Shown: one piece after another, positions 1 to 62,571 of the stretch
How the letters are laid out: the number at the start of each line of letters is the position of its first letter
How positions within the stretch are numbered: the first letter of the stretch is position 1
NCBI GenBank assembly: GCA_951230915.1
Contig: OX579636.1
Coordinates: forward strand, 29,943,567 to 30,007,566
Origin: Antitrichia curtipendula
Taxonomy: Eukaryota; Streptophyta; Bryopsida; Hypnales; Leucodontaceae
DNA: 64,000 nucleotides
Direction: 5' to 3'
Notes under the pieces: generated by a model
Database searches by the model: none
The model's input: the letters and a program-made list of their open reading frames with translations, nothing else
What the model was told of the DNA's origin: nothing
Program-made: the position numbers and the translations under genes

Positions 1-3000
1 ATCTTCGTCTGCATTCCATTCCGGCACTTTGTCTGCTGGAGAAGAGACCCCTGGCATGGGCAAGTTCTCTGGGCAATCAATAAAAATGACGTCGACCCTT
101 GGCTTAGCGTTTGACACCCCTGCGAACTTGCGAGCTTTTCCAACTGACATAGACTGCAAACATGTCATGCATTAAAATTGAGAGAATGAATACAAACAAT
201 GATAATATCACTCCAAAAAAATAGATCATTTATTACTATGAAGACAAAGATGGTCACCTTTTTCAAAAAGACAAGGACGTCTTTGTACGAAGTTGGCTTC
301 CTCTCTTCCATGACAACCACAAGGTCTTTGTCACAACACGGAAACCTAATTTTCGTATAGATAGAGTAGAATAGATGGAATAGATAGAGATTTTTTTATT
401 TTTTTCGATTAAGAAATGATAGTTGTCTTCCCGAAGAGCTTACGTTTGAACTAAGCCTTCATCCGGAAACGAGTTTCCTTTCCGGACAAGTTAGGGTTTC
501 CGGATATGACCCGGAACGCCGCCAGCTACGGAATAGGGATCCGGCCTACGAGGCTAGGGGACGCGCCTCGGGAACGGAACCCTAATCCTGTTCCAATCCG
601 GGAACTGGCGGTACTGTTTTGGCTATTTAAAGGCCACCACCGCCCCGTCTCTCTTCACTTTTTGAGTTTCCAAACTCCTCCACGCGTAGCTAGTTGAGAG
701 AAAGTCTGGTGAGAGTGCGTTTACGGATAGAGAGAGGTGAGGCCGGATTAGGGTTACTTGGTTGGTGCACCCATGGCGGAAAGTAGTGCGGCGAGATCCG
801 CGAGAGCGTCGGTGGTTGCCCGGATGGTCAGTCCGTCCATACCAACTGACCCCACCGCTCGACAGGAGTTAGAGCAAGATCTGAAACGGTTAGGGTGTGC
901 CGGACTAATCGAGAGGCCTTGGAATCTGAGAGGGGAGGAGTTGATTCAGGAGCTGATCAACGGGACATCCAACCAGTACGAGCTGACGGTGCGTGGACAG
1001 CCCAAGGGATGGATGGAGGACGTGTGGGCAGAAGTCTACTCGTTTCGGAAGTTCGGAGACGGGTTCGCATCTCGGGCGGATAAGTACGCCACCGGGAAGT
1101 TCCGGAACCCTCCTCACGCGAAGGAAGGGTACGCGATCAGTGACTGCGTGGATGAGCGCCATCGGCGGGTGCTCAACTTCCTGATCCCGATACTGTATCC
1201 GGAAAAGCCTACCCGGGTCACAGTGACGATGGCGAACACAATCTTCGGAGCTTTGGAAGAACGGGTGGTGCATTGGGGACGCATCATAGCCCAGGTGGTA
1301 GCAAAGCTCGCAGATCACGTATCCAAGAGCCGGTACAGCCCGATCAGCCCCTACCTTTTCCACATCTACCATTACGGAGATGTGTTGACACAGGACGAGC
1401 TGTTGGTGTACAACACCGGATTGGAGCTGGTCAAGTATGACTTGACGGATGAGCTGGAGAAGGATGAGCCCCTACCAGAAGAGGAGAATGATCCGGAAGA
1501 GGAAGTCTTGGAGCGGAAGAAGTCAAGGCGGAAGTCGACGGATCCGAGTTCGCGAGGAAAGCAACTCGAGACGGAACATGAGGAACCCATCTAGGTTCCG
1601 GAAGAAGGGAAACCGCCCCTCCGTGAGTTCTTCGACATCGGCTTTGACTGGATGCACCAGGCCCGGAACCTCCATCACAAGGCCATCCAGTTCATGGAGG
1701 AGGTGGCGACGGAGCTCAACGTGCCACCCGCGGAAATTATTGAGGAGATTAGACGGAGACCGAATCCGGAAGTCATCCGTCAGAAGGACGAGCAAATCCG
1801 GATTCTGGAGAGAAGCCGGGAGGAGGCAGAAAGCCGGAGGAACTGGGCACAAGGAGAGTGCGAGGTGGCACAGAAGAACAAAAAGGACGCCATGCAGATG
1901 GTCCGGAATCTCCAGACCCAAATCGGACAACCGGCGGACGTCATCAACAAAGCTAGACTTTACGACGCCCACTTGGTGACGGGAGGACACATCACCGGAT
2001 CCAAGGTGGTGATGATCCTCATGGATTTCGAGGCCCGGATGCAGAAGGTACTCCAGGAGATGCAGACCCTGGTGGCACGCGTCGATCCGGACAGAACGAT
2101 GGACTTCTCCACCTTTCCGGAAGCGGACCTCACCACCAACCCGTATCTCCAAACTCCGACAAAACCGGTCGTGGGGATTCCGGTTTTGTCGCAACCAGGA
2201 GGGTTGCATTCGCTCCTGAAACTAGTTGTGCAGCGGGAGTGGCTAACTCAAAGGACGGATTCTCCAGCCAAGAATCCGGAAGAGAGTCAGAGTGTTCCAG
2301 AGCAGGGCGGAACCTCTACGCCTGTGCAGAATCAGACACCGGAAGGGACGCAGATCAAGGAGAATTTGCTCCACCGGATCGGGGCGATGGAGAATCCGGC
2401 GAAATCTTTCCCGGATGACTTCATCCACATGCAAGAGGAAACTCCAGCGAGGCCATCTCCGCCAAAGACTGCCGACGAGCTAATCAACTTGGACTCGCCC
2501 ATCCGGGAGATGGAGATTCTCGAATCCGAGAAGGAGGATTTCGAGACAGAATCCGCGACGGAGACGGATGAGGAGGAAGACTCTCCACCGAAGAAGCGGA
2601 AGATCCAAACCCGAGCGGCCGGAAAGATCACACCAGTGCCAAATACCAGGGCGAGGACCTCTCTTGCGCAATCGGGGAGCAGTTTGAAGAAAGCGAATAA
2701 AGTAGGATTCAGAGGTTAGATTTAGACTTTAGTTTTTTTTTTGTTTTTTTGTTTTTTTCCAGAACGGGTTTTCCGCATGTGGGCCCGATTCCGGAAATTT
2801 TGGGATAACTTTCATTAGCATTCCGGAGATCTCGGATGCTTCTGTGGTTGGTTAGCTTGATTTTCGGTTGTCTCTTTTCCCTTCGTGTTTTGGTTTTTAA
2901 ATGATGAGCAGGCTTGTTGCTCATTCATTCCATCCTTATGCAATTTGAAGTTTTATTTCATTTCTTTTATGCTGATCTATGCCACTAAGTGTACATCCCA

Positions 3001-6000
3001 TGTTCTAAGTGTTTGTGTGAGGACTTGGGCGGTGTGTTTGTGCGTTTTGAGAGTTGAGAGGAACCGAGAAGGAGGAATCCGGATTTCATGAGTGTTTGGA
3101 GTAAGACATTGGGGGAGGATTTGTGAAAGAGCTGGGTCGGATCTGTAGGACTTGTGCACTTAGTATCTTTAAACTACTGGAACGGTAATCCGATTGGAGT
3201 AATGAGGGTGAGGTTCCGGAACTAGGAAGTAGTTCCGTGCGGGGTTAAGCAACCGCCAAGAGGAATATCCCCCTGCTTACCGGAAGATCTGCCAACTGCA
3301 GCATCACTTATTTTCCTATAGACCTTCTCTTGTGTTGAATCCGGATAGCTGTGATTTTGTCGTTGTAGTAAAGGAGAGAGACTGGCTTCTGCGTGACCTC
3401 TTTCCCGGATAAGCCATCCGGAAAGTTGTGAGGAGACAGAAACTTACTTCGCCGCAACATATAGATCTGTTGAGTGTCTTGGGTTGTTTTTTTTGTTTTT
3501 TTTGTTTTATAAGTTGGAACGTGTAGTCAATGAGTGGTGGAGTCCCTGCCCCTCTAAAGAGTAAAAGCGGGCCCCCTGAAGGTAAAACAGGGGCATAACA
3601 AACCGAATAGTGACCGTAACTGGATTCCGGAAGGAGACGGATCCGTATTAAATTCCGGAAAGGAGGAAGTCCGGAAGAGGAGAAAGAGGTTTTAGATACC
3701 TTTGGAATGATTTAGCAATAATCCGAATAAAACCAAATTCATAGCAACATAGTAGAGTCCCTGGGACGATATTCCGTGTCATCTAACCACAATTGTGTGT
3801 TAAAGGTGCTTACCTCTAGATTACGTGTACGACAGTCTTCAATCGAGATGTTGAGGATTAAATCCTCGGTCTTCACCACATCATCCTCTATGAAGACCAT
3901 CGCTTGGATCACGTGAGTAATGACATCTTCCGTGAGCTGCGATAGAGTGGCCTTCCGCTTCCCTCTGCTGACAATTTCCAAATCATGATCCACTATGAGA
4001 GATGGTGCTTCGTCCTTCTTCTTACCCTTGCCCTTGGCTTTATCATCCTTATCTTTTTCCGCCTTCTTTGCTGCTCGCTCAGCCTCCCTCTTTTCCGAGG
4101 TTTCTAGTTTCACTTGCGCTCGTGCTTCTTTCTTTTTGTCATGAGCATCTCTCTTCCTAATGGCCTTTGTTCTTGCTTTATCATCCAGGCCGGCAAACTC
4201 GTCAATGTCCAAATCGACAGCACCTTTGCCATCCAAAGATCTCCTCAATTCTACTTCTGAAGGAGGAGTGAAGGCCATTGTACAGTCCAAATACCATCCT
4301 CCACTGCTGAGATGAGCTGTGGTGTAGGTGCGTAGCTGATGCAGACTGAACATACAAGCCGTTGAGGTGCGGTCAAGAAATGACGATATGAATGGAAGAA
4401 GGTCCAAGCGAGAAATGGCCCCTTTGGCTTCAAGCTCTAATTTGAAATAACTGCAACACAATTACAGTTCTCCATAAGAAAAATATTACGAGGACAATAA
4501 AAGACTAACTAAAATATAAGAAGGACAATCCAAGTAAGGTTGAACAAGGTTTATACCCTCACTTTGTCTCTCACAAATTATTTCACAAACACAAGTGTGT
4601 AAAACCATAGCAACAATTTTAAGTTCTTATTCGAAGTGATGAAAGACAAATTACATTAGTACTTGATAGCGAACTACATTTTTATAGAAATAAGTTCAAT
4701 GTACTTACCGGAAGAGAACTCTACGAACTGCGGAGCCTGAACCTTCGTGAGCCACAAAAGACTCTCCCTTCTTGAAATAGTTTTGTCCCTTGAAGTACGT
4801 CATGAAGCCATGATCCCATATTTTCTGCCTCCGTCCTTCAATGTACTCTGGCAAATACTGTGGCTGCTGCGGTACATTGTAATTGATGTTGATGTTGTCT
4901 TGCCTCACCATTGAATCGAAGTACTCCACAACTGCATCTTCGATCTAAAAAAATGCCAGACTATGAAATTCCATAATTTTGGATATGACAAAGTTTTTTC
5001 CAAAGTCATGAATCAAATATTCAATACGAACCATCAACAAATTCAATTACATGAACATAAGTAATATTGCTCACTTACGCCTGCATACCAAACGCATTTG
5101 GCAAGAAAAGGAGAAAGGTAGTTTTCGGAAACAGACTTCTGTGGGAACTTCCTCGCTTCACGAGATGGAGCAGAGGAGTTCCACCACTTCAGAATCTTGA
5201 TCTTGTGTGCGACTGTCATGTTGCATGTGGCTACCATCTGCAACTTCTCCAAGGTCATTTCGGGAACCTTGTTCGTGCTCCAATGCCTCTCCACCTACAC
5301 CAATAGAAGATCAATTTCCAACTAAACATAACATGTGAAAAATGTAAATCACTCAATTTTGAGAAACTTTACTCACTTGTTCTAGAAATCCAGGCCCATT
5401 TGCAGGATTCGCCACCGCCAATAGTTTGCCCATCTTCACACTCAAATGTTTAGTTCTCTCTTTTGCTCCAGCCTTCATGGCAAGTGCCAAATCTTCTGCC
5501 TTCCTCTCACTTTCAGGCGTGACCTTGGTATACTTCCGCACAGCAACATCTGCGGCTTGAGAAATGTCTTGCTATACAAGCACCCCAATTTTAGGTAATC
5601 ACCTCATAAGATTCAAAAGCATGAGAAGACAAGGAATGTGAACTCTCATGTGAAACAAAATATCTTACCCGAAAAAGAAATGATGTGAAGACCTGCACTG
5701 GTATAGAGTACCATTTCTTGGAAACAGTGTTTTCAAGACATCTCTTCCTCTCTGACAGCCTAAGCAGATCAGCAAATTGCTGAATTGGCAGAAGTCCATA
5801 CTTCTGAACTTGATACAGAGTGTGTACCAAGTTAGTCTTCACACGGGAGTCTTCAACCAATCTGAAATGAAACCAGTATTCAAATAAATATTTTTTGCCT
5901 AAATCTTCTAAAGATATATAATAAATCAAAATTAAAAATAAAACAAAAAATACAAAGATAACTCACTTGTTGATGTCATGCATCACTTGCATGACAACTT

Positions 6001-7337
6001 CAATCCGACCTTTGGTGTCCAACACTATACAATTGACGGCACAATGCCATGTTGGATCCAATGCGTAGCACCTGTCAATCAAGTTCATCCAAGCAATCCG
6101 ATGGTGGTTTCCATCGCATATGGAGAACTTCAAGTTCTTCATGAACTTAAGCTCGTGTCTGGACTCCACAAACTTAGTGAAGACTTCATTTTTTTCTTTC
6201 CAGAATGCATCCCACTTGCTCATCTCAGCCTCCGTAAATTTTGAGCTTTCTCCTTGCTCATTTGACGTTGAAACGTAGAACACCGCTGCTCCATCACGAT
6301 ATCCTCCAGCAAATTCTTGTTCTAACTTTTTGATGTCGCAAGAGAGTGTAGGCCGGACCATGGGCATGGCTACAAGCCTACACAATGGAATGTGTAGGCG
6401 AAAGAGTTCTTCAGGCTTCATCCGCAAGCCACGGAGCGTTTCCACCGAATCTCCTTTGTGAATATGCCGCAGTTTGTCTTCTAGCAAGCCCTTTTCTTCC
6501 TCGTCTTCAACACTATCCTCCTGCATGAACTCGCCTTCTTCTCCTTCGTCCCCCTCTTCAATCTCCGGCTGCATAGTATCATCCGTTCCAGGAGTCTTTC
6601 GAAGAGTTTCTTCTTGTGTTTCTTTGACCGGCGATATGTCCATCTGCATATACAAATTCATGTATAATAAATTTAGAACTCATGATCATAAACATGTGAG
6701 ACAAATGATGTAAAGCATTCACTTGAGTCGAAATTCACAATGCTTTCCTTATGCCAAAAAAACACGAATCTTTAATGATAGATAGGTAGATAACTGCATA
6801 CATGATTGAAAAAATGATTGCCTTCATGGAACATTCTAATAATATGCTGCTCAAGAAGATCACTACCAAGACATATCCTATCCTACCACGTCCACTTCAT
6901 TGTCCTCATCTGAATCTGAGCTAAGGATGATGACCTCGTCAGAATAAACCCTACCATTAAGTGGGCACTCACACATAAACTCACATCCACCCTCAAACTG
7001 AGGACTACACAGAGAGTTAGAGAGCTCAATAGCAGAGGAAAATTCTGTATTAGAGCTCTCTAGTGACAACCACCAAGGGATAGGCTCACGTGTCTGACTA
7101 ACACGGTTGCCCTCAAAAGCATCTGCCGCTCGCTCAGCGGCATCCATGATGTCTGCAAAACTCACCAATGTGTCCTCCTCATCACTTGAGTCGCTTGAGA
7201 GGTCCACGCTTGGTTGAGGCCACTTCTTGGTATTTGAAGGCGCACCTATCTGAAGGGTTGGGAAACCCTTTATCTCAGGTGATTTTGGGATCCCCAAAGT
7301 AGCTTTTGCACGCTTGCCTTTGCGTCCATCCACCTAC
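1..7337 (-). CDS. ParB-like/DNA methyltransferase-like fusion protein, copy 1 (partial, spliced)
   Basis: The gene runs right to left and continues past the left edge. GT-AG exons I can place: 6643-5967, 5861-5669, 5571-5377, 5294-5079, 4944-4709, 4450-3814, 345-258 and 153-1. An upstream exon at about 7333-6878 may belong to it. Exon 6643-5967 begins with ATG at the acceptor, is acidic at first, then carries PLCRLVAMPMVRPTLSCD and CDGNHHRIAWMN, which resemble the ParB/sulfiredoxin fold with its DGNHR-type motif. Middle exons are mostly helical; 4450-3814 holds a Lys/Glu/Ala-rich charged stretch. The last exons give VDVIFIDCPEN, which aligns with VDFMFVDVPEG in copy 2, in the place of methyltransferase motif IV. 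Motif I would lie off the edge. The intron 3813-346 holds a large insertion. No frameshift or stop was seen in the placed exons. A nuclear DNA-binding/modifying role is inferred. Confidence 0.65.
624..633 (+). promoter_or_regulatory. TATA-like box of the inserted element
   Basis: The sequence tatttaaagg lies about 140 bases before the ATG at 773 and is followed about 30 bases on by a pyrimidine-rich stretch (gtctctcttcac) suited to a start site. It is the only good TATA candidate upstream of this gene. Confidence 0.4.
773..2719 (+). pseudogene. Element-borne protein gene (gag-like or unknown) with one in-frame TAG
   Basis: One frame runs from the ATG at 773 (context acccATGGcg) to the stop at 2717-2719, interrupted only by TAG at 1592-1594. 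The sequence after the stop stays in frame and reads as ordinary protein (VPEEGKPPLREFFDIGFDWM), so this is one gene of about 648 codons broken by a nonsense change, or a read-through gene. The N-terminal half is a folded-looking region ending in an acidic/basic linker (EEENDPEEEVLERKKSRRKS). The middle is coiled-coil-like (about 1770-1900, rich in E, R, K and Q). The C-terminus is acidic and then carries a classical nuclear-localisation-like motif PPKKRKIQ near 2590. No zinc knuckle, protease or polymerase motif is seen. Family not recognised; the short repeats of PE codons reflect the CCGGAA bias of the block. Confidence 0.5.
2720..3720 (+). other. 3' noncoding part of the inserted element
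   Basis: Begins with T-rich runs (2728-2758), keeps the CCGGA bias of the coding part and has a second T-rich run near 3488-3510. No reading frame in it looks real. It may be a long 3' untranslated region or a terminal repeat whose partner is missing. Confidence 0.35.
5967..6643 (-). other. ParB-like domain exon of copy 1
   Basis: This exon carries the most recognisable part of the copy 1 protein. The order is an acidic leader, the conserved PLCRLV.MPMVRPT.SCD segment, and the DGNHHRIAWMN motif near 6100-6125, followed by a stretch ending MHDIN at the donor. ParB-family proteins bind or cleave DNA, and many bind CTP through a nearby motif. Whether this one does either cannot be read from the sequence. 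Copy 2 has DGNHRRIAWMN in the same place; copy 1 reads DGNHHRIAWMN, so the second Arg is His here. Confidence 0.6.
6878..7337 (-). CDS. Acidic, Ser-rich exon or small gene upstream of the ParB-like exon (copy 1)
   Basis: The reading frame starts after a good acceptor (cttgtgtag) at about 7338 and ends with a stop at 6878. It begins with a basic patch (GRKGKRAKA), then is Ser/Asp/Glu-rich (SSDSSDEED, LSSDSDEDNEVD). Either it is the 5' part of the ParB/methyltransferase gene with a donor I did not settle, or a separate small acidic protein. A region in the same place upstream of copy 2 (51807-51310) also ends in a Cys-rich then acidic stretch, but the resemblance is weak. No function is recognised. 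Confidence 0.35.
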
Positions 7338-7439
7338 ACAAGAACACAGTAAGAATTAAATTAATTGATCATCTGGGTCTAGGCATCATATGTCTCAATG
7401 TGAACGCCTATGACATTGCAAAATCGAATTCAAAATTTC

Positions 7440-7580
7440 AATAGGGCTATGGTAAAGAATCTAGTTTGTGGGGTAGCTCAAGAAGTGCCAAGAAGGACCA
7501 TCGGATCCGACGGACCCATTGAAAGTATAGTTAGGTACCCCTCAAATAATATTTTTGGATTGTCGCCCATCCATTGACAA
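7440..7580. repeat. Hairpin element, TCGGATCCGA core (unit 1)
   Basis: The palindrome tcggatccga at 7501-7510 is flanked by arms reading ggggtagctc on the left and ggtacccct on the right. Other members of the set are centred at 7730, 8257, 8716 and 13994. It is the least regular of the five. Confidence 0.45.
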
Positions 7581-7659
7581 AAATAACAGGAATTGAAGGA
7601 ACATCAATTAGGGTATCGGATATCAGGTGTTCCCCCTGGAAACTCTTCTTTAGGGGTAC

Positions 7660-7785
7660 CTCGAGGATTCTTTCTTACAGGGTATCAATTTACGGGGTAC
7701 TTCAAGGTACCCAGGAAATACCCGTCGGATCCGAAGGACCTTTCCTGGGTATCTGGAGCTACCCCAGAAACGGGTTCTTGTGAGT
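7660..7785. repeat. Hairpin element, TCGGATCCGA core (unit 2)
   Basis: The core is at 7725-7734. The left arm (ggggtacttc...acccaggaaat) is complementary in part to the right arm (ctttcctgggta...gctacccca), giving a foldback of roughly 90 bases. Confidence 0.5.
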
Positions 7786-8204
7786 GACCAATTTTGAATT
7801 ATCTAGAACGTGAATGAAGAATACGAAACAATCTGCTTATGGAAAAAGTGAGTAATCCCACCGTTAAATTATGTAACAATATTTTATCTAAATTTGATAA
7901 TATCACAACATATCATCGCCTAAGACTTTGTTGATTTTGTGAGTTACATGTTCACCTTCTCTCTGAGCTTGTATGGCAGTTCCCAGAGATGCATCATTTG
8001 CCTGCATTGTATAGGAGTTGGAATCAAATATGTAAACAAAAAATCCAGAAACTTTGCAAATACAACGAGGGAAAATCCGATTGATATTGAGGAAAAATCC
8101 GAAAATCATGGCTTCACCGTGCCCTCGCGGAGCTCGACATGTAAATTCTTCCTCAGTCTGTCCTATAATCGATCTAGTGCTAAATTTTTGTTAACGAGAC
8201 CGCT

Positions 8205-8305
8205 GAAGTTGCCAGTTCCATGGGTACCTCATGCCACCAGCTAAGATTGTGTCGGATCCGACGCCCATTCGGTGGGTTCTTGCTGGTACCCCAGAAATCG
8301 AGATA
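8205..8305. repeat. Hairpin element, TCGGATCCGA core (unit 3)
   Basis: The core is at 8252-8261. The arms tgggtacctcatgccacc and ggtgggttcttgctggtacc pair imperfectly around it. The outer end 'tggtaccccagaaa' resembles that of units 2 and 4, which supports one family. Confidence 0.5.
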
Positions 8306-8674
8306 CACGATAACTGTTTCCAAGAATCCGACTGCAGGTACTAACCATTTGAGACTCCTTGATGCTCATCAAGTACTAGAGAAGTCAATAAAGCTACACC
8401 AGAATCTCGATCATCACCAAAAACTTTATTTCAATCTGTGAAATTAAATATGCTTGGGACTAGGATCGACAGGTTGCAGAAGCGAGCAGAACTAACTAGG
8501 GACATGATTTTGCTATTGAATGGAAGTCAGAGGCGGTTCAACTTATGAAGCAAATAAAACCTATACTCATTTGAGCTCGAACCTCAGCGGAATCTTCTTT
8601 GTCAAAGAAATATTGAGACGCTAGTTGCGGTCGGAAACGAAACAGATCGTCACCAAATTACGATGTAGTTCCAG

Positions 8675-8760
8675 TTGGTGGGGTAGTAGCAGCCACTTGA
8701 AATAGTAGCGTCGGATCCGACGCCCATCTCTTGGCTACCTGCTACTACCCCAGAAAAGGG
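8675..8760. repeat. Hairpin element, TCGGATCCGA core (unit 4)
   Basis: The core is at 8711-8720. Arms are ggggtagtagcagcca on the left and tggctacctgctactacccc on the right, an almost perfect stem. It ends in the same 'accccagaaa' as units 2 and 3. Confidence 0.6.
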
Positions 8761-10589
8761 GACCGTTGACATCCCAACTTCACATTTTAAATGAGGTTCG
8801 GTATGAATTTGAAGACAGTACACCCTGACAACGACAACAGCGTTGCAATCAAGTTCACATGCCATGCACAAACCCGAGACACGTCAACCCGAGCGTCGCA
8901 CCATTCGCGTGCCACGCAAGACCCAAGCTTCTCACCTGACGCGCGACACTCACCGGCCGGGAGCCTCGTTGCGGACGCGCTACGCGTGATGCGACCAAAA
9001 AGCCAGGGTCCTTGCAGCCCGAGGGACCCGACAAGCAACTACGTTCTCAAGTCAATCATCACGATATGTAAGTACATTTGAAGCATACGCATGTTGTGAG
9101 ACAAACTCACACGGCAAGTCCAAGTGCATGTGACAGAACCCTCGCGGTCATGCACGCGAAACGAGATCAAAATTAAGCACGTACCTTTGTTGAGTCAGCT
9201 GGCTCCGAGAGGCTCCCATCTTCGTTTCCAACATTGCCCTGCCTGGTTCAGCTCCGCATACTCCCCCTCATCGCTCCATGTTCCTGCGCAGTCCCTTAGT
9301 GATTCAGTCGATATGCAAGCACGGATGGATATGGGACTGATCAAGGAAAAAAATGTATCGGAGTTCAGTGCTTCCTCAACCACACGCAGTTCGAGTCACA
9401 GGCAGTGATCGATGGAGCTTTTTGCTCGGTTGTCAGTTCTCCATGACAGCGGAATCTGTGGGCGGCAAATTGAATGCAGGCCTGATTGCATGGATACTTT
9501 TCCCACGAATCCTCAATTCCTCATCCATGCAAATATTATCTAAGGAACCCAATCATGTTCAAAAGAGATTCTTCTTTCTATTCTTGAGTCGGAATTACCT
9601 TTTGTACTTAACACCACCTATGCTTAAGAGTTCAGTTGCGGTTTAGTGGCCTCAGTATCTTGCGTGATTTGTGGTTCATGAATGGTCGTTCCCGTACTGC
9701 CTAAATGTATCAACTTCAGCTGCTCGAATGTCTCGGTGAACTTGTCAGATGCGTGACGTGGCGCGCACGCACTCATAGCTTCTCAGCAACAAAGAAGTCG
9801 ACTTAAATCTAGGACTACTTATATGTTGTTCCTTGTGGATAGTGAGATGTATTCTGTTGTGGTCCAAGAATTTGGAATACTAATTTCCAAATTTGAAGCC
9901 ACCAAAGTGAAGGTACAATATGTATGAAGAGTAATATTGAAGCCTAGACTGATTGAATGCTAGTTTCGGAAAAAAAAAAAATAACAATGAAGTCAAAGAT
10001 ATCCATCTTTTCAAAAATCCTGCAAAGCAACTAATTTGTTTATCATTTTGCATCTACCAGAGACCATCCACTCATTATTTTATAGTGCTCAGTACGAAGT
10101 GTCAATCTATAAATCAATCTCTACCATTTCACCAAAAAGAAAGGATAATCATTAATTTATTCTAAATACGGTTCATTTTTTGATTTGGGGAGTCATGTTT
10201 AAAGCACAGCTTGTAATGTGATGCATGCACTTGTTCTCAAGCACAACAACGTTCACTGTAGAAACATTGAAAACATTATTGATCCCTTGTCATTAGACTC
10301 TACTCAGATCACAACATCAATACTTGAACATAGCTTCACTTTCTTCTTAGAATTTCATTTGAGTACTCACAACTACTGCAGTTCCAAGTTGGCAAACTAT
10401 AAAGGGCCCTATATATTTGTATCCTAAAACATATGCAATTTGGTGTCCTTTTTGTGCTTGTATATATATTAGCAATACATGATTAAACTAATGTCTGGCC
10501 TCAAGGAATATCGCATTCAAACATATGGCGCTTGCGTAATGAGCATTGGATAAAAACAACAAGCTCTTGAGAATAGAGAGAATAGATAT

Positions 10590-10863
10590 TATCGTACATT
10601 AGTGCTAACGTGATGAGCTGAAACTTCGTCATACGTAAAATTTTGCTGAGACTCTTCCCCTTCTCCGCCAACCTCCTCGCCTACAACACCCATTGCGTCC
10701 CCACTTTCTCCCACCTCGAAGTGAAGAGTCTTCCGAAGCTCGCCAGCTCCAGAATTTCTGGACTTTGACATAGCCCTCTTGGATCGATTCATTCTAGCTC
10801 TACTCAATGCTCTAGAAGAAGAAAAATAGAATGAAGATCGCCTCTTCCTCTTTCTACCCTGCA
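10590..10863 (-). CDS. Candidate exon encoding a basic-then-acidic protein
   Basis: An open stretch follows a plausible acceptor (ttgccattgcag) and begins with a strong basic cluster (GRKRKRRSS), then RSKRAMSKSR, and turns Gly/Glu-rich (GEEVGGEGEES) before a stop at about 10589. Such composition suits a nuclear protein. It lies on the minus strand between the ParB/methyltransferase gene and the transposase. I found no counterpart in copy 2, so it may be chance or a lineage-specific exon. Confidence 0.25.
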
Positions 10864-11611
10864 ATGGCAAGCTAAACAAATCTCCTTGGTCTTCTATGAG
10901 CATGTGCTAAGAGAAAGGATAATGAGAACAACTACCTCAGAGAGCAAGCACTAACACACCAAAAACATGATGTACAAATGAATCCCTCCTCCTCAAAAAG
11001 ACTATAAGTACTCTTTGAAAATGGACGTTGGCCTCCATAACTTCACACAAGTTGTGTTATAGCATAGGTCTGCCATTTATGCTTGTTATTGTTGCAAAAG
11101 CGTGCCGCGTCACGGCGCTTGATGGTGCTGTCAACATCTTTGATAGTTAAGAAGGGCAACATCAATTCTGATAGTACTTTTTTGGTAAATGTGAAATTCT
11201 GCACATGCCATGGTACAAGCGTGGATTGTGTGTCATATAATCAGAAGAGGATAAATATCTCAAAAAGAAATTTAGGACATATCTTAAATCAAATCTATCT
11301 GCAGTGATTCCTTCACTTCATACCTAAATGCACTACAATGATGATGAGACCGTATTGTAGCAGTTGTCCCTTTCCAAAATATTCAGTAAATGTTGGCGCT
11401 TATGAACTTGAAGAACATCAAAAGGATGGCATCTACCGTCATTAATGATGAAAGTAAAAATTATAATCAAATTTACCTTTGGCGCCTTTGTCCATAATGG
11501 GGAATGGCATGGATCACTATAAAACATGGAGACACCCAAGTAACCTGTGTATCCTTCATATACAGTGTGATTCTTTTGGATTTCAGTATCTACTTGTCTA
11601 TTGATAGAAAC

Positions 11612-14600
11612 ATGGCCTGCATACGTGTAGATGGTCAGGAGGCACCCTTAGTGTTTCCACTTGATGAAGGAGGGCGAGTTAAAGTACTGAATCATTTGTT
11701 TCATGTGAGATTCAAATTTGTTGAATCGACTATCAATGTAGAGGAAGAAAGAAGGTCTGAGTTAGGTGAATTGCAACAATCAATTCCTATACTAAAGTCC
11801 ATGTGTGATGAGGGCTTCTGTTGGTACCTAGCGTCTAGGAATTATAGAGTTTATGGTATCTCACTATCAATGGTACCCTCCTCTCTTGAGATAGGAAGTC
11901 GGCAATTAGTGAATTCAACAGTGGATATCCCATTCATGAGAGAGGCAACTACAGAAGGTCCATGTCGTGAACGTCTCTCAGTATTTTCTAGAAGTCCAAT
12001 TCCTGTTATACCGAAGATAGAGAACTTGGATTCTATCATAGAGTTGGCTAGCAATTCAGAAGAAGACTCTCCACCCTTAACCCTTCAACTGAACCCCCTT
12101 ACAATTAACAATGCTTTAGAGGAGAAGGGAAATGGGAACTCTGAATCCAATACCCCATCTAGTAGTCATGCGCGCTCTGTGTTGTCCCGTCCTCCATTGC
12201 ACCCAAGGCCTTTCCACCAACCCAGTATAATGAAGTGCTTGAGGAGACTTTCTAAGCTTCATCGTTCTAGGAGTGAGTTGTCTACAATGGACTTTGACAC
12301 TGTGGAACACCATGAAGTGAAGTTTTTGCCTCCTACATACAATGGGAACACCATCTTTGAATTACCTCCGTGTGGACCACAATCTTATTCATCTTGTGCA
12401 AAGAACTTGGAAGGAATGGACAAGCGATATGACGGACATCCTTGGTGCAAGTTGGTGACAACAAACATCCACAACTCCGACAACTTAAAGTTCCGTAAGT
12501 CATACTGCGCTGGTCATCTTGTTTGTGAAAATACTGAGTGTGAGTATATGAAGAGGGCTTCCAGAAAGAATGAGACAGAATAGAGCGGTTCTACAGTTTT
12601 TCCTTTTGCAATAGGAGAGGGTCCTCCTAAAGATTGTAGGCTAGTTTGTAAGGTTTGCAAAACAATACCTACGTGCGTGAGCTCATGCGGCACTAGAATT
12701 TACTACTGCTACAGCAATGATGCAAAGATGAGTAGGGCTGCTATTCACCTCGGTAATCATATTCATCCGGTAGCTATGGGCTTGTATAGGGACTCCGCAA
12801 AAGAAATTAGTGATCTCATTGCAGAGCAGGTGTCTAGAACCCCCACAGCCACCAACTCTGCCATTGCGCTATCTGCTAGCAAAGATTTCGTACAAAATCA
12901 CCTATTTCATCACGGAGAAGGAGAAAAGGAAATGTTGAAAGGAGAAGAAATGGAAGAGGTCATGGATCGCTTCCAGTTTCTGAGCAGTCCAAGTATACGA
13001 AACGTCATCTCTTCTTTTCGCTCAAACAATCGAGGAGGAGTCATTGACAACATTATGACCATGAAGAAAGAATCAAAGTTCAAATTTATACATGATAGCG
13101 TCTTCCCAGGCCAAGGCAAAGAGAAGGTGTACATTTTCAAAATGCTCACTGAAGGACTTGGAAGTGGAGTGGACTTCATAAGGCGTATGCAACCAGGTGG
13201 TGATCTGCAAAACACGTGGATGATGTTCGACCACGTAAAGCGCGTGAAGGACTGGACCACAATGGCTTGCCACATGTATGATTCACAGTACAAAAAAGTG
13301 ATGACCATTGCCATGTGTGACATGCAATCTGAAGATACCGAAGTCCAAGTACAATTTTGGAAGAGTTTGAATTTGGTCATGGCACGACATGGATTGGTTG
13401 ATCCGAACTTCAAGGGATTTATGGCAGATAGCGCCATGGCCAATTGGAACGCAGTTCGTATTGTGTACGGTAGTGGCAGACTCGATGAGGTAATGGAGAA
13501 CCGTGAAAGGACGTGTTTGCTACACTGGAATACTTCTCTTATAAAACACACACAGAAGCACATCAAGCATGCATTTCAACAACAACACATTATGTTATGC
13601 AAGCAATATAAAGAATCAAAGACCGTGGATGAAGCAGAGAGTCGGTACCTTGCAATTCGTTCATGGTGGCTTTCGTCTGGAGCTGCAACCGAAGAAGCAC
13701 TTCATCACCTAGACCACTGGCAGGCATTTTGGCATTTTCGATATTTACAGTGGGGAGGCTTCATGACCATGGTAAACTCAACTAAGAATTTTTGTTTCTA
13801 GCTTCATTTTTTTTTTATTACAAAGTGTTGCAAAATAGAGTTATACTTTGTACCAGAAAAAATTGTCAATGGCTTTTCGTTTTTTTTGTTTCTGTACATG
13901 ACAACAACAAATTTTGACTAGTAAATTTCTTTGAATTATTGATGAATATCAAAAATGGGAGTAGTACCAGGCAATACTTAAACATCCGTCGGATCCGATG
14001 GATGTTCATGTGTTGTCTGGTACTACTCCTATTTTGGGTATTCATTAGTTGCAAGGAATTTGAAAGGTCCTAAATTAAGAATTCACATTTTCAATATTCC
14101 TTACAAGGTATTCTAGTTGTACAGTGTGAATTTTTAGAATTCGTTTTTCTCATACAAATGTTTCATGTATGCTTAGAATAGTTTCTAATTGCTTCGGTTG
14201 GATTTGTAGGGCTTGAGTTTGGAAGAGATGACAGATTTACCTTTTTGTAATCTGTCCGAAACGGTTCATAACAAGTGGCTTCAAATGTCTGGTAAACGTG
14301 CAAACAATTTGTTTGACGCCACTTGTGATGATAGTATTCGTGCTTGGATGCAAATGACAAACTACCGTGCATATTTGAGAGGTCACACTTCTGGTTCATG
14401 ACCATCCAAGGTAGATTTGAAGTTGAGAGCTGCCAGACGCAGCGGATGCCCAAAAAAAATTGCGGAGGCATTGAACACATTGCCGGAAGCACATGGTGTA
14501 GGAACTCGAGTACCGCATTTGGAAGGAGAAGAAATATTTGGAAGCACGAAGAGAAAGTTGGACATATCTATTGGTGATGCCGGAGATTCACATCGCCCCG

Positions 14601-15598
14601 ACAAGGTCAACTTTTCTCAACCTCGAGTTTGAACAAGGTCAACCAAGGTTTTCACGGAGCCATTGGAAGTCAACCAATCACACAGCGAGGTCACTCCACA
14701 CCAGTATGTGCCAATCGCATTTGAAAGTGACTGCGACACATCAAAGTGGCACATTGCAAGGATAAGTCACAAATCAAATGCAAGATGCCAAGCTCAGCAA
14801 CGAATGTCAAAGATCAAGTGTACCGCAAAAATTGCAAAAGGAAGAAAGGGAACTCCAGCTCCCACCTACCGTGGTAGAAAAGAAGAGTATGGGAGTAAGC
14901 GTGAGGTGGTGGCCGATTTTTGGTTTTGTTGGGATGATATTGAACGATGTGTGCAAGGTACAAAGCGTAAGTGGGTCATAGATTGGCCTGAGGTGCCGAA
15001 AGTTTGGCAAGTGTTGGCTGGAACCAACTTGGATCGAGAAGAGACATTGTTGCTGCAGCATGCAGGCCTCCGCCTCCAAAAACGGCCTACATTGTCGCCA
15101 CGTCAGCTCTTCTCCATGTCTAATATTTTTGAGCCTGTTTTGTTTGACCAAGCATCTCCACCAAATCCGGATGCATATCCAACAGTGAGGAACAACCGGA
15201 CCATTAGGAGAGCTACAAATGCCCCTACTGCAGAGCAACGGAACAAGTGGGAGAGTGCTCGGAATGTTAGAGGCCAAATTTTAGGAGTGACCCTTCTCCC
15301 TTTTCCAGGCCTTGGAGCAATAGTGGTACTCGAGAGTGGAGTGGACTCCAACAGCCATATATACCGAATTACTGTTGGTATGTTTCCTACATGCACATGT
15401 CCGGACTTTGTGAATACGGTTGTGTCCGCTGTTGGAGGTCGCCAACAATACGTGAATTGTAAGCACTTGTACTACTTGTATAGGTACTTCTGCAAGATGG
15501 ACCTTCATGAAGACAAATTCATTCATGCACCTAGTTATAGCTACAATGAGTTGAAGGTACTCCTAGTGCGGGCAAGGATTATCATATTGTCAGAGTAA
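11612..15598 (+). pseudogene. MULE-like transposase with SWIM zinc finger, copy 1 (three nonsense codons)
   Basis: The frame runs from the ATG at 11612 to TAA at 15596-15598 with one likely intron (about 13774-14210, donor ATG|GTAAAC, acceptor tttgtag). Within it are TAG at 12581, TGA at 14399 and TGA at 14630, with no frameshift. In copy 2 the residue at the first stop is Trp (NETEW). Domains in order: N-terminal region; a Cys/His segment before and after 12581 (CKVCKTIPTCVSSC and nearby Cys/His); the RNase-H-like DDE core, with candidate acidic residues in CDMQSED and in FMADSAMANW (Asp codon 13427); then a C-terminal SWIM finger, CTC at 15392-15400 and CKH at 15458-15466. This order fits Mutator-like transposases, which cut and paste DNA in the nucleus. 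The end is followed by a consensus donor (GTAAGT at 15593), so a further exon is possible. Not functional as it stands. Confidence 0.7.
13940..14045. repeat. Hairpin element, TCGGATCCGA core (unit 5), in a transposase intron
   Basis: The core is at 13989-13998. The left arm carries gggagtagtaccaggcaata and the right arm the near-complement tgtctggtactactcctatt, so about 50 bases on each side can pair. It lies inside the likely intron (about 13774-14210) of the copy 1 transposase, so it need not disturb the coding sequence. A small inverted-repeat transposable element (MITE) is the likely class. Confidence 0.6.
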
Positions 15599-16140
15599 GT
15601 ATGGCTACTTTTTTTATGTAGTGCAAAGTATTGTAATGGCCCTCATACATTGAAATGATATGAAGTACATGGCATAGAAGAAGTTATTGGTATCAAAAAA
15701 TAGAGGAGCATGTCTCATATGTAAGAATACGTGTGGATAATTAAAATGCATATGCATGAGTTCCAACCTTATATTTTAGTGTAATACTACACACCCAAAT
15801 ACAAGGCGGCCTTTGCTAATACATCAGCGTACAATACTGATGAGAGCTGAAAATGGGGAAGAGTGACAAGACCAATGTCCAGGTTCCTACTCAAGTGTCC
15901 CACAACACATGTTCAGAGGTCACTTTTAAGTCTTCAGTTGTTCCATAACGATTGGCATTTGGGAATGAGTCACTATATAAGTAGTTACGTTCAATGAACA
16001 ATCATTGCGGGAGGACTGTTTGGGGAATAGACCTTGGCCGTAATTGTGTGGCATATTATATTCCCAACGGTCCTCTAGCATTTGTTCAAGATGAATTACG
16101 TCATGTGTATTCAGGCAACTTCGTATTTGGGCACAAAAAA
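15599..16140. other. Noncoding stretch after the transposase
   Basis: No gene seen. It should hold the 3' untranslated region of the transposase and perhaps part of the right end of the element. Confidence 0.4.
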
Positions 16141-16460
16141 TTGTGAGTGATGGAGTTGCCTCCCCATTACCATTTGTGAATGAATTTTTGTTCACTGGTA
16201 GTGATTGGCTTTCACAACCTATAGTAAAAAAAAATATGTTGAGTGACGGAGTTGCCCCCCATTGAAATTTGTAGATGAATTTCTACTCACCGATGGTACC
16301 TTTCTTTTACAAAAAATATTTAAAAAAAATCGATGAGTGATGGAATTGGGCCCCCATTAAATTTTGTCGATGAGTTTCTGTTCATCAGTGCGGCTTGGCT
16401 TTCACAACTTCTAGGAAAATAAATATGGTGAGTGATGGAATTGCCTCCCAATCAAAAATA
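16141..16460. repeat. Short tandem array, about 3 units of about 95-110 bp
   Basis: The words 'gagtgatgga(a/g)ttg' followed by a run of C and 'ccatt' recur, each followed by 'gatgaattt/gatgagttt' and 'ggctttcacaac'. Units are diverged. The array lies just past the transposase gene and may belong to the subterminal part of the copy 1 element. Confidence 0.5.
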
Positions 16461-16589
16461 AAATTTCACACAATCCACGGTTATAGGGTACACGGTAATA
16501 GGTCAAAAAATTGACATTTTTCCTCTTTTTTCCCAACAAAATCGGAAAAAAAAATTTGGGAGTCCGAATTTTCAATTTTTTTAAGTTTG

Positions 16590-16665
16590 GGGGCTCCAAG
16601 CTCACGAGATCCACGCTCACAGCTCACAAGCTCACCGCTCCAAGCTCGCCTGCTAGCGTCGTTGG
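16590..16665. repeat. GAGC/GCTC-rich block, possible right terminus of the copy 1 element
   Basis: The word gctc recurs (ggctccaagctcacgag, cacgctcacagctcac, aagctcaccgctcc). The reverse complement resembles the GAGC-rich block at 43999-44065, to the left of copy 2. This could be a terminal repeat with transposase sites, but no long exact match was found. Confidence 0.25.
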
Positions 16666-17040
16666 TCCCTCAAGGATTCTTTTAACCATGGTGGTGAATA
16701 TATAAGTAGTTATATGTGGCTTCCAAATTGGCAGTGGCAAAAATTCCAAAATTAGCTTAGAAATTGGTCCATTTTACCAAAGAATTTTTTCACCACCCGA
16801 TGTATGGGACTAACAAAAATCTAGTCATTTATGGTATTCATAAGGACCATAAGTGTGCTTGTTGGTGATGAATGTCAAAGAAATAATTATATAGTGTGAA
16901 CCTAGGAATCCACCTATTTTTTGTGTGGTTCTTTATACTTGAATCAAATATTCATTTATGAGTCCATGGATATTTAGATCCAAATTTGTGTTAAGTTAGT
17001 AGATGTTTGAATTGGATTTATGAATTTCAACTTCATGTAA

Positions 17041-43000: not shown

Positions 43001-43990
43001 AATGACTATACCAACAACAATGACTACAAAATGACTATTTTGCAATCATTGTTGTTGGTGCAGTCATTATGGACAAGTCATTCATATCCCTAGTTTCTTG
43101 TAGTGATTTGGGTCTTATTTTAGGAAAGTACTTTGATGCAATTTGGGCCTTCAAAACATTGCAAAACTTTAGAGCTTAAACAAAATAAGTAAAAGCAAAC
43201 ACTTCACTAATTTGTCCTATTTGTGAGAGGAGGTAGGGAGATGGGAGGAGATTAGCATCACTTAGAAAATTAACATTGCCTAAAAATTGATTCTTTTGAA
43301 AATTGATACAATATGGTGATATTTCAACATGCAATAATTAAAGATAGTGTGACTTTAATAACTTATTGCCACACGTACTATTAAGACAAGTCACTTTTTT
43401 TTTTACATGCTCTCTATTTTGAAATGGCAAATTTTGCCAAAGTGTGGTCTAGGTAGCACTGTATGATAGCTCCAATGCATGTGTTTTTAGATAGCAATAC
43501 TCCAAGGGGTGCAAAATTGGTGATTGGGCAGGCCAAACTAATAGCAATGTCCCACACAAGCATGCCAAGGCCAAACAATGGCCAGCCATTATTGAATTTG
43601 GTGAGTACATAGCCAAATAAAGTGTCTCACGCTTGGTGCGGTATGTAATGTGACATAGTTTTTGAGGTACAATCTACATTGTTTGACCCCACTTGTAGAA
43701 AATGATCCCCAGCTAGTCCTCAAATGGTGGCGCCTCTAATGAAAGAGCCGGTTAAATTCTTGGGCTATGTGCATCATGGTGTTACCATATCCCAATCCCG
43801 TGCCAACGTGGGGGCAAAGAAAAAAATATAAAAGCCGAACTCTTTCAAACCGCACGCCAAACTCCTACTTCGTGCCTTTTCTTGGGATAGTTGCTGTGGA
43901 GATGCTCTTAGGCTTTCAACTGTGCATTTGTTAATGAAGCTAAGTGTAGATCTCCATTCTTTCTACACATGCCACCACAGATCAATGGGG
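40081..43990. other. AT-rich noncoding stretch
   Basis: No gene recognised. It holds one hairpin (42992-43090). Confidence 0.45.
42992..43090. repeat. Hairpin, about 100 bases
   Basis: The left arm (ccaacaacaatgactacaaaa) and right arm (ttttgcaatcattgttgttgg) are near-complements around a 6-base centre, and the outer parts (gggtataaatgac / cattcatatccc) also pair. A MITE relic or other fold-back is likely. Confidence 0.5.
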
Positions 43991-43998
43991 AATGCTGG

Positions 43999-44065
43999 TA
44001 TGCGAGCGTAGAGCAGCGAGCAGCGAGCGGGAAGCGGGAATTGATGAGCGGGGAGCAATAATATT
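43999..44065. repeat. GAGC-rich block, possible left terminus of the copy 2 element
   Basis: Repeats of gagcg/gagca (gcgagcgtagagcagcgagc and following bases) stand out from AT-rich surroundings. The reverse complement of the block at 16590-16665 is similar in style. Confidence 0.25.
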
Positions 44066-44149
44066 AGAACTAAAATATAATTATTGGAAATTTAAAAAAT
44101 CTAAAATGGATGAAATTTTATAAAAAAGTTGGGAAGAACTTTATGAGAC

Positions 44150-44345
44150 TGGATGGAAAAGTGGATGAAAAAATGGATGAAAAAGTGAATGAAAAAGTAG
44201 ATAAAGAATGGATGAAAATGGATGAAAAAATTGAAAGAAAAGTGGATGAAAAAGTAGATTAAAATGGATGAAAAAGTAGGGAAAAAGTAGGAAAAAATGG
44301 ATGAAAAATGAATATTAAAGTGGATGAAATGTGGATGGAAAAGTG
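44150..44345. repeat. GGATGAAAAAGT-type minisatellite
   Basis: Imperfect units of 12-13 bases (ggatgaaaaagt) recur many times, with looser copies to about 44640. Confidence 0.7.
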
Positions 44346-44989
44346 ATCACAGATTGCTGAATAACTGGATTAATTTTGGGCAAAAATGCATGGGAATGAA
44401 TGGATAAAATTGAAGAAGTTTACTGAACAAAATGGTTGAATAGAAATGGAAGAATGGACTACATGGGGTTCGAGGAAAGGGATGAAAGGTGGCCCCCAAA
44501 ATGGATGAAAGCTTAGGAAGGTTTAGGGTCACAGAATGGAATGAAAGTATATGATAAGAACTCCTAAATATAGGACAGTAATATGTGAAAATGGATGAAG
44601 AACTGTAAAGAATGGATTAAAGAATAGTAAATAAATAGAAAGCTTGTGGTTCAGATTTGAAACCAATTTTAGGGCTCAAGTGATGAAGTAAGCATGCTTT
44701 AGGGTCCACTTCAGGAGAAGGAAGTTATTCTTGAACTGTGGAGTTCTAGAGTTTAGGCAACCTTGGAGTAATGGATTAAGCCACATTTCTACGTTAAAGA
44801 GAACACTGTTTCGGATCTTTGAGGTTTAGGAATCATGGTACCCTCTTCATCCAAAAGAAAGTGGGACAAACAAACAAACAAAATTGAATTGCATCAATAT
44901 AATGAGGTCATTAGAAGTACAACTTACCATGCAGCATGCATAATTGAATTGCAAACAAGACAGCCAGCACTTTTCCTTATGAAAGAGTG

Positions 44990-45370
44990 GGTGCCCTCTA
45001 CTCTATCATGGAGCACACACGTCACGCTGAGGTCTGTTCCGGGGCACCTTGTGAGACCGAAGGGGCATAGTGGGCACCCGAAGTTTCCCTAGGGTGCCCT
45101 GAGATATAGAGGGTGCCCGAAAGTCTGCATCAGGCGGAGAGGGCAGACCTCAGTCTGCTCCGGGGCCCCATAAGTGCCCAAAGGCTGCCCCGGGGCACAG
45201 AAGGGGCCCTACGGGCTAATCCAAGGAAGAGAAGGTGGTCAGTACTTTGCTTGGAGCAGACAGGTTTAGGCATGTCTGCTCGGGGTCAAAGAAGGCGCCC
45301 CAGAGTTTGGCCCGGGGCTATTTTAGGTGCTGAAAAGTTTGAATTGAGATGGAGTGGCCACCCCTGAACG
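44990..45370. repeat. GC-rich degenerate repeat block
   Basis: The words 'ccggggc', 'gggtgccc', 'gtctgctc' and 'gaaggggc' recur every few tens of bases. It is much more GC-rich than its flanks. No reading frame in it is convincing. Confidence 0.45.
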
Positions 45371-46821
45371 AGTCGTCAGACGGAGAGTAAGTACAATAAG
45401 ATGAACTTGGGACGGATGGGAGTAGGAGCAACCTGAAGGGATAGTCAAACTCATGAAGCTGATACAATGCAACAAAATTGGAATTCAATTCCCGTTCAAA
45501 ATAATAATTGTGTGAATGACAACGCATTCATCGATTTGACAGAGAACCCATTTCAGCAAGGGTTTGATGGGTCCATTACTGTATGGACCTTTTCCATAAA
45601 CACATCTAATCAGATATCTTGTCTTGAGTATTTGAACTTCTTCGTAGTCTATCCAAAAGACCTATGACGTGCTGCAGACGGAGGTGGATCGTCGGTATCA
45701 TCATCCTCGCCATCTTTTTCTCAATCTGAGACGACATGATAACAAGTATGACATGAATGTACATATAATCACATTTTTGTTGATTTTTATGAGTTCACCC
45801 ACTACTTGGCAGTCCGCATGCACTTTCTTCACGCCAAAAATGTAATCGCCCACTAACACAATTGAACTAATGAATTTTGTGCACGTTTAATCTGAAGACC
45901 AACAAGTCAGAGGGAAGGCTACTCTTTAGCCAAGAAGACTAAGACTTTGCTAGTAATGATTAATCAATGGGTTCAAAATGCAAAACTTCAATGCGGTTAG
46001 TAGACAACTACACAACATGGCTGAGAAAAATGCATGACAACTGACACGAAGAGGGTAATCGTATTCTGCAATGCTAGGAGCATTGCTCAAGAATCTTCAC
46101 ATACTAATCATCTAATATGGCATGCTCAATATCTCCTATACTAATGTGCACAACAAAAGTGTGGAAGTTCAGGCAAAGGAAACTAGCTATAAAACGGCCC
46201 CCGCTCCCAATACACTCGCGTGTTAGAGAAAATACCCCGTGTCGGCCCATGGCCGGCGGCCATTTCCTCTGCACACAAATGCGAGGACGAACAAGGCGCC
46301 GTGCTTTGTTCCAGAGGGCACGGTGGGACGCTACAACAGATAGCCACGCGATTTTAGGCATTGCAGACCACCGTGGCCGGCAAGCATCTTACGTAGGGCA
46401 GTCCTACCTGCTCGCCCGACAGCTCAAGCAAGGCCAATAACAGTGAATGTCAAACGTTATGGCAGACAACGCAGTCTGTCCTCAAAGCCCCGCGTTGCTG
46501 GCACTATAGCATTATAGAACCGACAAGCAAAGAAGGTAGGGCAGACTGGGTTAATAGACACGTGTGGCAGGCAATGCTTCCCATTGTTGTCGGGAGACGA
46601 GATTGGCAAAGCAGACCACTCTGCCATGTGAACATGGCATCCGAACTGAAAGGCTAGTGAAAGAATGAGAAACTGATGTGTACAATTAAAGTCTAATTAG
46701 AGATTCTCATATGACCACCGTAGAAGTAAATAGATGCTAGTATGCAATACCATAATAATATAGTAAGCCGAATGCTACAATGAGAAGCATACGGTAGCCT
46801 TTCATAAAGCTTTGTGGTTGC
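45371..46821. other. Noncoding stretch left of the copy 2 methyltransferase gene
   Basis: No gene recognised. A GC-rich patch at about 46190-46640 has recurring 'gcaga' words. The 3' untranslated region of the minus-strand gene should lie at its right end. Confidence 0.35.
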
Positions 46822-55680: not shown

Positions 55681-55839
55681 GTTGACAAACCCTCATTGAC
55701 ATTGAATTTGTAAATTCACCCTCCTGTATCACGCCGCTGCAATCCACACTCATGGCTGTCTGGTTAACTCATTTTCTTCATCACTCGCGCTAAAACCCTA
55801 ATCTTGGAAATGGAAGAACTTACCACTGGAGGTGGTCGC

Positions 55840-56155
55840 ACTGTAGACTCTATGTTCTCCGTTCCTTGCTTGTTTCGGCGTGACCTGAGGTTTGGTCGCT
55901 GAATCTCCATGTCGAACTGCCAAACAGTCCACCCGAATAGAAGCCTGAAAACTCCTGAGGACACAACCGCAAGCATTGACTAAAGAATTGACAATTTGAA
56001 TGAACATACAGTGCAGTGAAGCAAGCAACACAATGAGAAAATATCACAGAGGCAAAACATACCGAGGTGCTTCTTTTTCGGCGGGTGAGGGTGGAAGATC
56101 TCGGCAATAAGGTGCTGCTTGGAACTAGACGGATTTGGTAGCCTCCGTGAAGGGG
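55840..56155 (-). CDS. Candidate 5' exons of the copy 2 gene, beyond the satellite
   Basis: On the minus strand one open stretch ends at a strong donor near 56065 (ACCTCG|GTATGT) and carries a basic patch (LTRRKRSTS). A second lies between an acceptor near 55950 and a donor near 55823 (CCAGTG|GTAAGT). If used, the satellite would lie within an intron of the copy 2 gene. No counterpart could be shown in copy 1. Confidence 0.25.
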
Positions 56156-58680: not shown

Positions 58681-58692
58681 GCTTGGCTCGAG

Positions 58693-62547: not shown

Positions 62548-62571
62548 TGATACTTCTCTTGTGCACTTGCG

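Follow-up and report, generated by a model that had tools for sequence, protein, structure and literature searches.

Large DNA transposons that pair a likely transposase gene with a divergent methyltransferase-like gene and a conserved intergenic palindrome

Introduction

The presence of a ParB-methyltransferase gene opposite the transposase within a transposon has already been published. The accessible part of the account of Sola1-1_Ec32 from Ectocarpus describes a 21.5 kb DNA transposon with an opposite-strand gene, the 1104-amino-acid product of which carries ParB-like and DNA methyltransferase domains (PMC12477816). Here we analyse a stretch of 64,000 nucleotides (C4:29943567-30007566, the window) from a genome of 400 Mb in 303 contigs, in which two large elements each contain a plus-strand gene that likely encodes a transposase, a divergent minus-strand gene for a methyltransferase-like protein (the second gene) and copies of a palindrome between the two. 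The host is a eukaryote, since the genes contain introns. Negative coordinates and coordinates above 64000 denote element parts outside the window.

Another comparable system, and the nearest one with a demonstrated mechanism, is found in the VANDAL transposons of Arabidopsis, where, according to the accessible part of the report, the protein VANC binds short motifs that are arrayed in tandem within the transposon encoding it and causes loss of methylation (PMC5735166). As far as that part goes, the elements described here resemble VANDAL in having an accessory gene and motif arrays in one element, the arrays being non-coding and family-specific and the motif being the putative target of the protein. 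This likeness is one of element layout. In contrast to the situation here, the VANC motif YAGTATTAY is not this kind of palindrome, and anti-silencing was shown for VANC whereas it is proposed for our elements.

Sola elements generate a target-site duplication of 4 bp. Like in the described part of Sola1-1_Ec32, the methyltransferase-like gene of our elements is located inside the element on the strand opposite to the transposase. At the level of element structure they also differ from this member of the Sola superfamily, their duplications being 10 bp long and their terminal repeats rich in GAGC. The accessible part of the Sola1-1_Ec32 account mentions neither a palindrome array nor an altered motif IV, both of which are present here. 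In bacterial partition systems, ParB binds palindromic sites, termed parS. The elements are similar in that a 16-bp palindrome is located in several copies near the gene of a ParB-like protein, but there is no plasmid or chromosome to partition, a methyltransferase-like domain is joined to the protein and the ParB fold is putative.

Our preferred reading, held with moderate confidence, is a family of large DNA transposons combining a likely transposase gene with a divergent methyltransferase-like gene, whose protein likely binds the intergenic palindromes and would thereby keep its own element active or mark it as such. As far as seen in the accessible parts of the open-licence papers found, an element type with 10-bp duplications, conserved palindromes and a D-x-P-E motif is new, and neither the palindrome array nor this gene pair in a Mutator-like element is described there.

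Element ends and enclosed genes

The preliminary description of this DNA had placed two such gene pairs in the window, in the same order and on the same strands, and both are present; the elements themselves overrun the window, element 1 (copy 1) on the left to -1575 and element 2 (copy 2) on the right to 68126. The features of element 1 are:

-1575 to 16664 (1..16664 inside the window): element 1, 18240 bp in total
16595..16664, minus strand: right terminal inverted repeat with GAGC-rich subterminal repeats, from alignment to the left end
16665..16674, plus strand: right copy of the target-site duplication, GTCCCTCAAG
11498..15595, plus strand: transposase-like gene, with frames 11498-12580, 12584-13798 and 14663-15595
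6881..7333, minus strand: predicted first exon of the second gene, an acidic open frame, similar to the copy 2 first exon by eye only
5967..6643, minus strand: ParB-like exon (CDGNHH)
5669-5861, 5377-5571, 5079-5294, 4709-4944 and 3814-4450, minus strand: middle exons, splice model matched to copy 2
~346..3813 (edges approximate): intervening block of ~3.4 kb between exons, without counterpart in copy 2
258-345, then 153 on to ~-1221 (outside the window), minus strand: start of the methyltransferase-like part, with motif IV DCPE

For comparison with element 2 we used six stretches of 30 kb, copies A to F, each closely matching copy 2 in the ParB-like exon. The features of element 2 are:

43987 to 68126 (43987..64000 inside the window): element 2, outer ends common to copies A, B, C, E and F
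43987..44030, plus strand: left terminal repeat, GGGGAATGCTGGTATGCGAGCGTAGAGC...
46821..51152, minus strand: ParB/methyltransferase-like gene, 1077 amino acids modelled
50506-51152, 50193-50382, 49883-50077, 49580-49795 and 49204-49439, minus strand: exons of its first half
48329-48998, 47818-48168, 47462-47735, 47165-47369 and 46821-47076, minus strand: exons of its second half
51313..51816, minus strand: predicted first exon, with tblastn matches in the loci L030, L031, L032, L038 and L040
57122..62312: extra segment of ~5.2 kb, missing from copy A
62572..64000 in the window, plus strand: transposase-like gene, main frame to 64665 and further frames to ~66373, with CxC...CxH near the end

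Terminal repeats and target-site duplications were found around both genes. The 10 bp after position 16664 (GTCCCTCAAG) recur exactly before the matching inverted repeat at -1575 (seen in L009), and the terminal inverted repeats of element 1 differ by few mismatches over ~50 bp. When the right flank of copy 1 was searched for at the DNA level, 19 other places with 95-97% identity came up, all matching from the query start; 17 of them stop at window positions 16664-16667, and two extend to 16664 by way of a second piece. Copy 2 shares its outer ends (GGGGAATGCTGG... and ...TTG) with copies A, B, C, E and F, and the match of copy D reaches neither end. The terminal inverted repeats of this type are imperfect, and copy A contains an element of 20.5 kb. 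Among the six copy-2-type elements with both ends mapped (D excluded), an exact 10-bp duplication is present in three (A, E and F), B matches at 9 of 10 positions, and no target-site duplication is present at C or at the window copy.

Together with the genome-wide linkage reported below, these ends support the earlier claim that one transposon family carries both genes. The same picture could in principle arise from two adjacent transposons or from a transposon with a host gene next to it, and the foreign-looking blocks in both window copies (57122-62312 and 346-3813) would fit with that. Common outer ends, duplications and genome-wide pairing speak against it, so that we regard this explanation as having a next to negligible probability: separate elements or a host gene are ruled out in copy 1 by the ends and the duplication, and in copy 2 by the outer ends common to five other copies.

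The two pairs had been described as clearly diverged, in agreement with the translated frames, which are 35-56% identical for the minus-strand gene and 33-35% for the plus-strand gene; direct alignment of the two ParB-like exons gave 43% identity. The minus-strand gene of copy 1 had been located at 1-7.3 kb; it extends beyond this range, with its last exons outside the window (as far as about -1221). The copy 1 transposase was likewise found on the plus strand (11498-15595), but it contains an in-frame stop at 12581-12583, and thus copy 1 is likely not autonomous.

Genome-wide pairing of the two genes

Searches of the genome gave 150 listed matches of 1306 candidates for the ParB-like exon of copy 1 and 150 of 1241 candidates for that of copy 2, in both cases including the query itself, and 149 of 1457 candidates for the transposase core of copy 2. 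Among the matches listed, the two exons share no places.

In the copy 1 subfamily, all 20 right-flank places (window included) match one to one, and divergently, with ParB-like exons that are 91-100% identical and located 9.2 to 34.7 kb away. For the copy-2-type exons, at least 72 of 150 have a divergent listed transposase within 15 kb, two have one on the same strand, none a convergent one, and for 76 none is listed. Within 20 kb the number is at least 74 of 150, compared to 0.67 on average and at most 12 in 1000 rotations, a null model in which the lengths of contigs C5, C7, C10 and of the small contigs were guessed. The homologues are therefore not usually unlinked, as a refutation of the preliminary description would have it, nor do element ends fall between the two genes.

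Copy-1-type exons were found near the copy-2-list transposases in none of 150 cases within 15 kb; within 20 kb, two are divergent, one is on the same strand, one is convergent and 146 have none, all among the matches listed. We take this as a sign that the transposase list holds the other clade. In three further loci of which 10 kb each were read (L031, L032 and L033), the transposase adjoins the gene. No transposase was found in the 10 kb of L030, where an array fills the sequence from 4846 to the end, and a listed transposase is located 16 kb from the exon.

A palindrome between the genes

The region upstream of the second gene contains a short palindrome in both elements (copy-1-type site GTCGGATCCGAC, copy-2 site CTCTCGGTCCCGAGAG):

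7498..8723: four palindromes with the core TCGGATCCGA upstream of the copy 1 gene, at 7501, 7725, 8252 and 8711
13989: fifth copy 1 palindrome, in a presumed transposase intron
51853..55672: array between the genes of copy 2 in ~224-bp units with 10 exact TCGGNNCCGA cores, mostly as TCTCGGTCCCGAGA, otherwise as a variant

All 15 cores in the window are located within the two elements, with 0.23 expected. The core TCGGNNCCGA was recorded before eight of ten upstream regions were fetched, the last four of which were chosen without sight of their sequence, and it is present in all ten (1.5-2.0 kb frame upstream of the exon), compared to three of ten for the best of the other palindromes among the 256 of the form 4+2+4. 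Four diverged families with exons 57 to 75% identical all have the core, either as three copies or in repeat units with a length of 148, 181 or 437 bp, and the four families chosen blind have exactly one core each per 2.2 kb stretch. The shuffle probabilities of these last four regions multiply to 7e-10, a figure that overstates independence because the families share ancestry; in addition, the families number nine and not ten, since L032 and L038 are 86% alike. With this pair omitted, the short matches between upstream regions number 216 and measure 47 bp at most, and 161 of them cover the palindrome in both regions compared, showing that the palindrome has outlasted its surroundings. The 16-bp form CTCTCGGNNCCGAGAG has 1148 copies genome-wide, the reversed control none. 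Among the matches listed, 8 of the 17 site clusters on contig C1 are within 10 kb of a listed gene. The sequences flanking the core differ with the protein clade ([CG]TCTCGG.. versus GTCGG..), apart from L042.

The palindromes might be purely operators, through which the second protein or a host factor regulates the divergent promoters; neither spreading nor marking nor anti-silencing would then be involved. The distances are compatible with this: the nearest palindrome of copy 1 (7501) is ~170 bp upstream of the predicted first exon, in ten regions the nearest one is 0.7-1.5 kb upstream of the ParB-like exon, and in some families the stretch read contains no more than one to three sites. However, several families have 10 to 35 sites over kilobases, which is beyond what an operator needs, and the genome contains 1148 exact copies. 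A pure operator function is a rather unlikely explanation, but one to be taken seriously.

An improbable alternative is that the second protein has nothing to do with the palindromes, which would instead be binding sites of the transposase or play a part in transposition or replication. Inside the element the palindromes do adjoin the transposase gene as well, and one of them lies in its presumed intron (13989), but none is present in the 100-bp ends of both families, where a transposase would bind. It is a weak point against this alternative that the site flanks mostly track the clades of the ParB-like exon, the ones compared, with L042 as a misfit.

Two further features were noted. Candidate second symmetric arms are located ~29-35 bp either side of the palindrome centre (GCATA...TATGC and GGGGTA...TACCCC) in L030, L031 and the window at 7.5-8.8 kb and 51.8-55.7 kb. 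Copy D (L021-L023, joined stretch 22229-23082) has a further TCGGNNCCGA array near its transposase, mostly with a spacing of ~85 bp, which perhaps belongs to a different element.

The second protein

The second gene has at least 10 exons in both copies plus a predicted extra first exon upstream; the predicted first exon of copy 1 has a tblastn match in none of the other families tested. The copy 2 exons align almost over their full length in the six close copies, apart from a 1-base insertion in B and 23 bases in F, in one exon each. A search of 5.8 billion proteins with the modelled protein of 1077 amino acids gave 6143 candidates and no homologue with an E-value (E) of 0.001 or below.

Sequence similarity places the C-terminal half among the N6/N4 methyltransferases. 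The Pfam family N6_N4_Mtase matches copy 2 with an E of 9.5e-5 and 22.9 bits, which is under the curated cut-off of 26.7, and copy 1 with an E of 0.025; a profile of six families found the structures 5hfj and 5hek of the adenine methyltransferase DpnA in the PDB (E 8.6e-4). Like in DpnA-type enzymes (5hfj, 5hek) and in CcrM (6pbd), the motif IV region precedes motif I, and the surroundings of motif I can be aligned. Unlike in DpnA, motif IV reads D-x-P-E instead of DPPY and motif I reads DCTAxTG instead of DPFMGSG.

ParB/sulfiredoxin-like domains contain a motif of the type D-G-x-[HR]-R. The N-terminal half of the second protein is predicted to be ParB/sulfiredoxin-like: it shows a pattern IPLxxL...VRP...DGNH, which we take to be of this kind and which no profile library confirmed. 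Its conserved features are a stretch IPLC...MPMVR and, in five of six exons, CDGNH; the motif itself reads DGNHR in two of the six exons, DGNHH in two, DGNHC in one and NGNHR in one, a count and not a statistical test.

Several observations weigh against our preferred reading. Active N6/N4 DNA methyltransferases have the catalytic motif IV [DNS]PP[YFW], and all six families have a non-catalytic form of it (DVPE in four, DIPE in one, DCPE in one); at this point the alignment of the D-x-P-E stretch with DPPY of DpnA is weak. ParB found no match in Pfam (six exons), the PDB (profile) or NCBIfam (two exons), the PHROG ParB-like family phrog_1033 reached just an E of 0.055 in one of six exons, and an unnamed PHROG outscored it with 0.021 in one exon. 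Two AlphaFold models from two-row alignments had a mean pLDDT of 34 and 40 and were uninterpretable. On C1, 9 of the 17 palindrome clusters are not near a listed gene, one of them checked; in favour of the reading, this one (C1:23977637-23979161), without a listed gene within 15 kb, has its own ParB-like exon alongside. The exact 16-mer is found up to 10 kb upstream of just 6 of the 17 copy-2-type exons on C1 among the matches listed, and the remaining 11 may carry site variants. Finally, L042 carries copy-2-type sites, although its exon is closer to that of copy 1 (50%) than to that of copy 2 (44%).

The altered motif in all six families could also mean that the second gene is a captured passenger, a dead methyltransferase without present function, and in line with this many of the listed ParB-like exon places carry stops and copies A and B have internal stops in the gene. 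Against this stand the pairing in 20 of 20 cases and the substitution pattern. In seven close copies of the copy 2 subfamily, the ratio of nonsynonymous to synonymous substitution rates (dN/dS) is 0.27-0.52 for the whole gene, with noisy values of 0.25-1.31 for the methyltransferase exons alone. Between families, these exons have a dN of 0.062 and a dS of 0.634 (L034) and a dN of 0.186 and a dS of 1.86 (L035); dS is saturated for L036 and L037, and dN/dS is about 0.1 where unsaturated. The gene is thus under purifying selection, strongly so in the methyltransferase-like domain between families despite D-x-P-E, and so the second protein does something, with DNA methylation as a putative activity; a mere passenger is highly improbable. 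The preliminary description had called the protein a DNA methyltransferase, of which the family match stands by sequence, whereas motif IV is D-x-P-E and not DPPY. The domain could either use an unusual catalytic motif (D-x-P-E) or be a non-catalytic module binding S-adenosylmethionine or DNA.

The transposase and its superfamily

Of the labels ParB, MULE and SWIM, as given in the preliminary description, Pfam and NCBIfam confirm neither ParB nor MULE, and SWIM stays below the threshold. For MULE there was no Pfam match at E<=5 with the transposase cores of both copies, and comparison with the frames of this genome that do match Pfam MULE gave a profile probability of 0.2%, based on shallow alignments. 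The SWIM zinc finger reached an E of 0.35 at the C-terminus of copy 1 (sub-threshold), and CxC...CxH is visible in copy 2. The Mutator label, like that of ParB, is based on motifs, on the element ends and on the length of the duplication, with no contribution from profile matches.

According to the accessible part of the literature, Mutator-like elements have target-site duplications of 8-11 bp (PMC6446971). In accordance with that account, the elements described here have a 10-bp duplication, inverted terminal repeats and a C-terminal SWIM-like CxC...CxH stretch; they differ in the lack of a Pfam MULE match and of profile similarity to the Pfam-MULE frames of the genome.

Further features of the window

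The intervening block at 346-3813 contains plus-strand frames within 758-2719 (758-1594, 1652-2719 and others) and abundant CCGGAA-type words, and is perhaps a non-autonomous retroelement. Long terminal repeats flanking it were searched for, and no direct repeats of at least 30 bp were found in window 1-4600. The extra segment of copy 2 (57122-62312) has several short tandem repeats (59965-60124 and 60488-60680). A minisatellite of the TGGATGAAAA type follows closely on the left end of element 2 (44150-44345), and inside the right end (~67100-68050) there are frames resembling the reverse complement of this type; a similar minisatellite is found in L033 at 7224-7506. Between the elements, at 28991-30732, the window has plus-strand open frames at 28991-29929 and 30157-30732.

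Discussion

With the preferred reading, in which the second protein likely binds the palindromes of its own element, the observations could be connected as follows. The N-terminal half of the protein would recognise the palindrome, and the array between the genes would serve as loading site and operator, allowing the second protein to regulate both promoters. From the array, the protein might spread or loop over the element of ~15-20 kb. The outcome could be protection from host silencing, similar to VANC acting on its own tandem motif arrays, or self-marking for transposition. Binding, spreading and anti-silencing are suggested here by analogy, and the preliminary description, too, had put forward such a role as an inference.

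A bolder version, which we put forward only tentatively, is a parS-like system of a eukaryotic transposon superfamily. In that case, the ParB-like protein would load at the arrays of 16-bp palindromes and spread over 15-20 kb, and a repurposed methyltransferase domain would mark self, with each family protecting and mobilising only its own copies.

In algae, ParB-methyltransferase genes were noted in transposons before, the target being left open in the accessible part of that account. The presence of an altered motif under purifying selection raises the question whether such proteins methylate DNA at all. The palindrome beside the gene provides a concrete prediction of a 16-mer binding site, and with it a handle on the means by which a transposon could recognise copies of itself and protect them.

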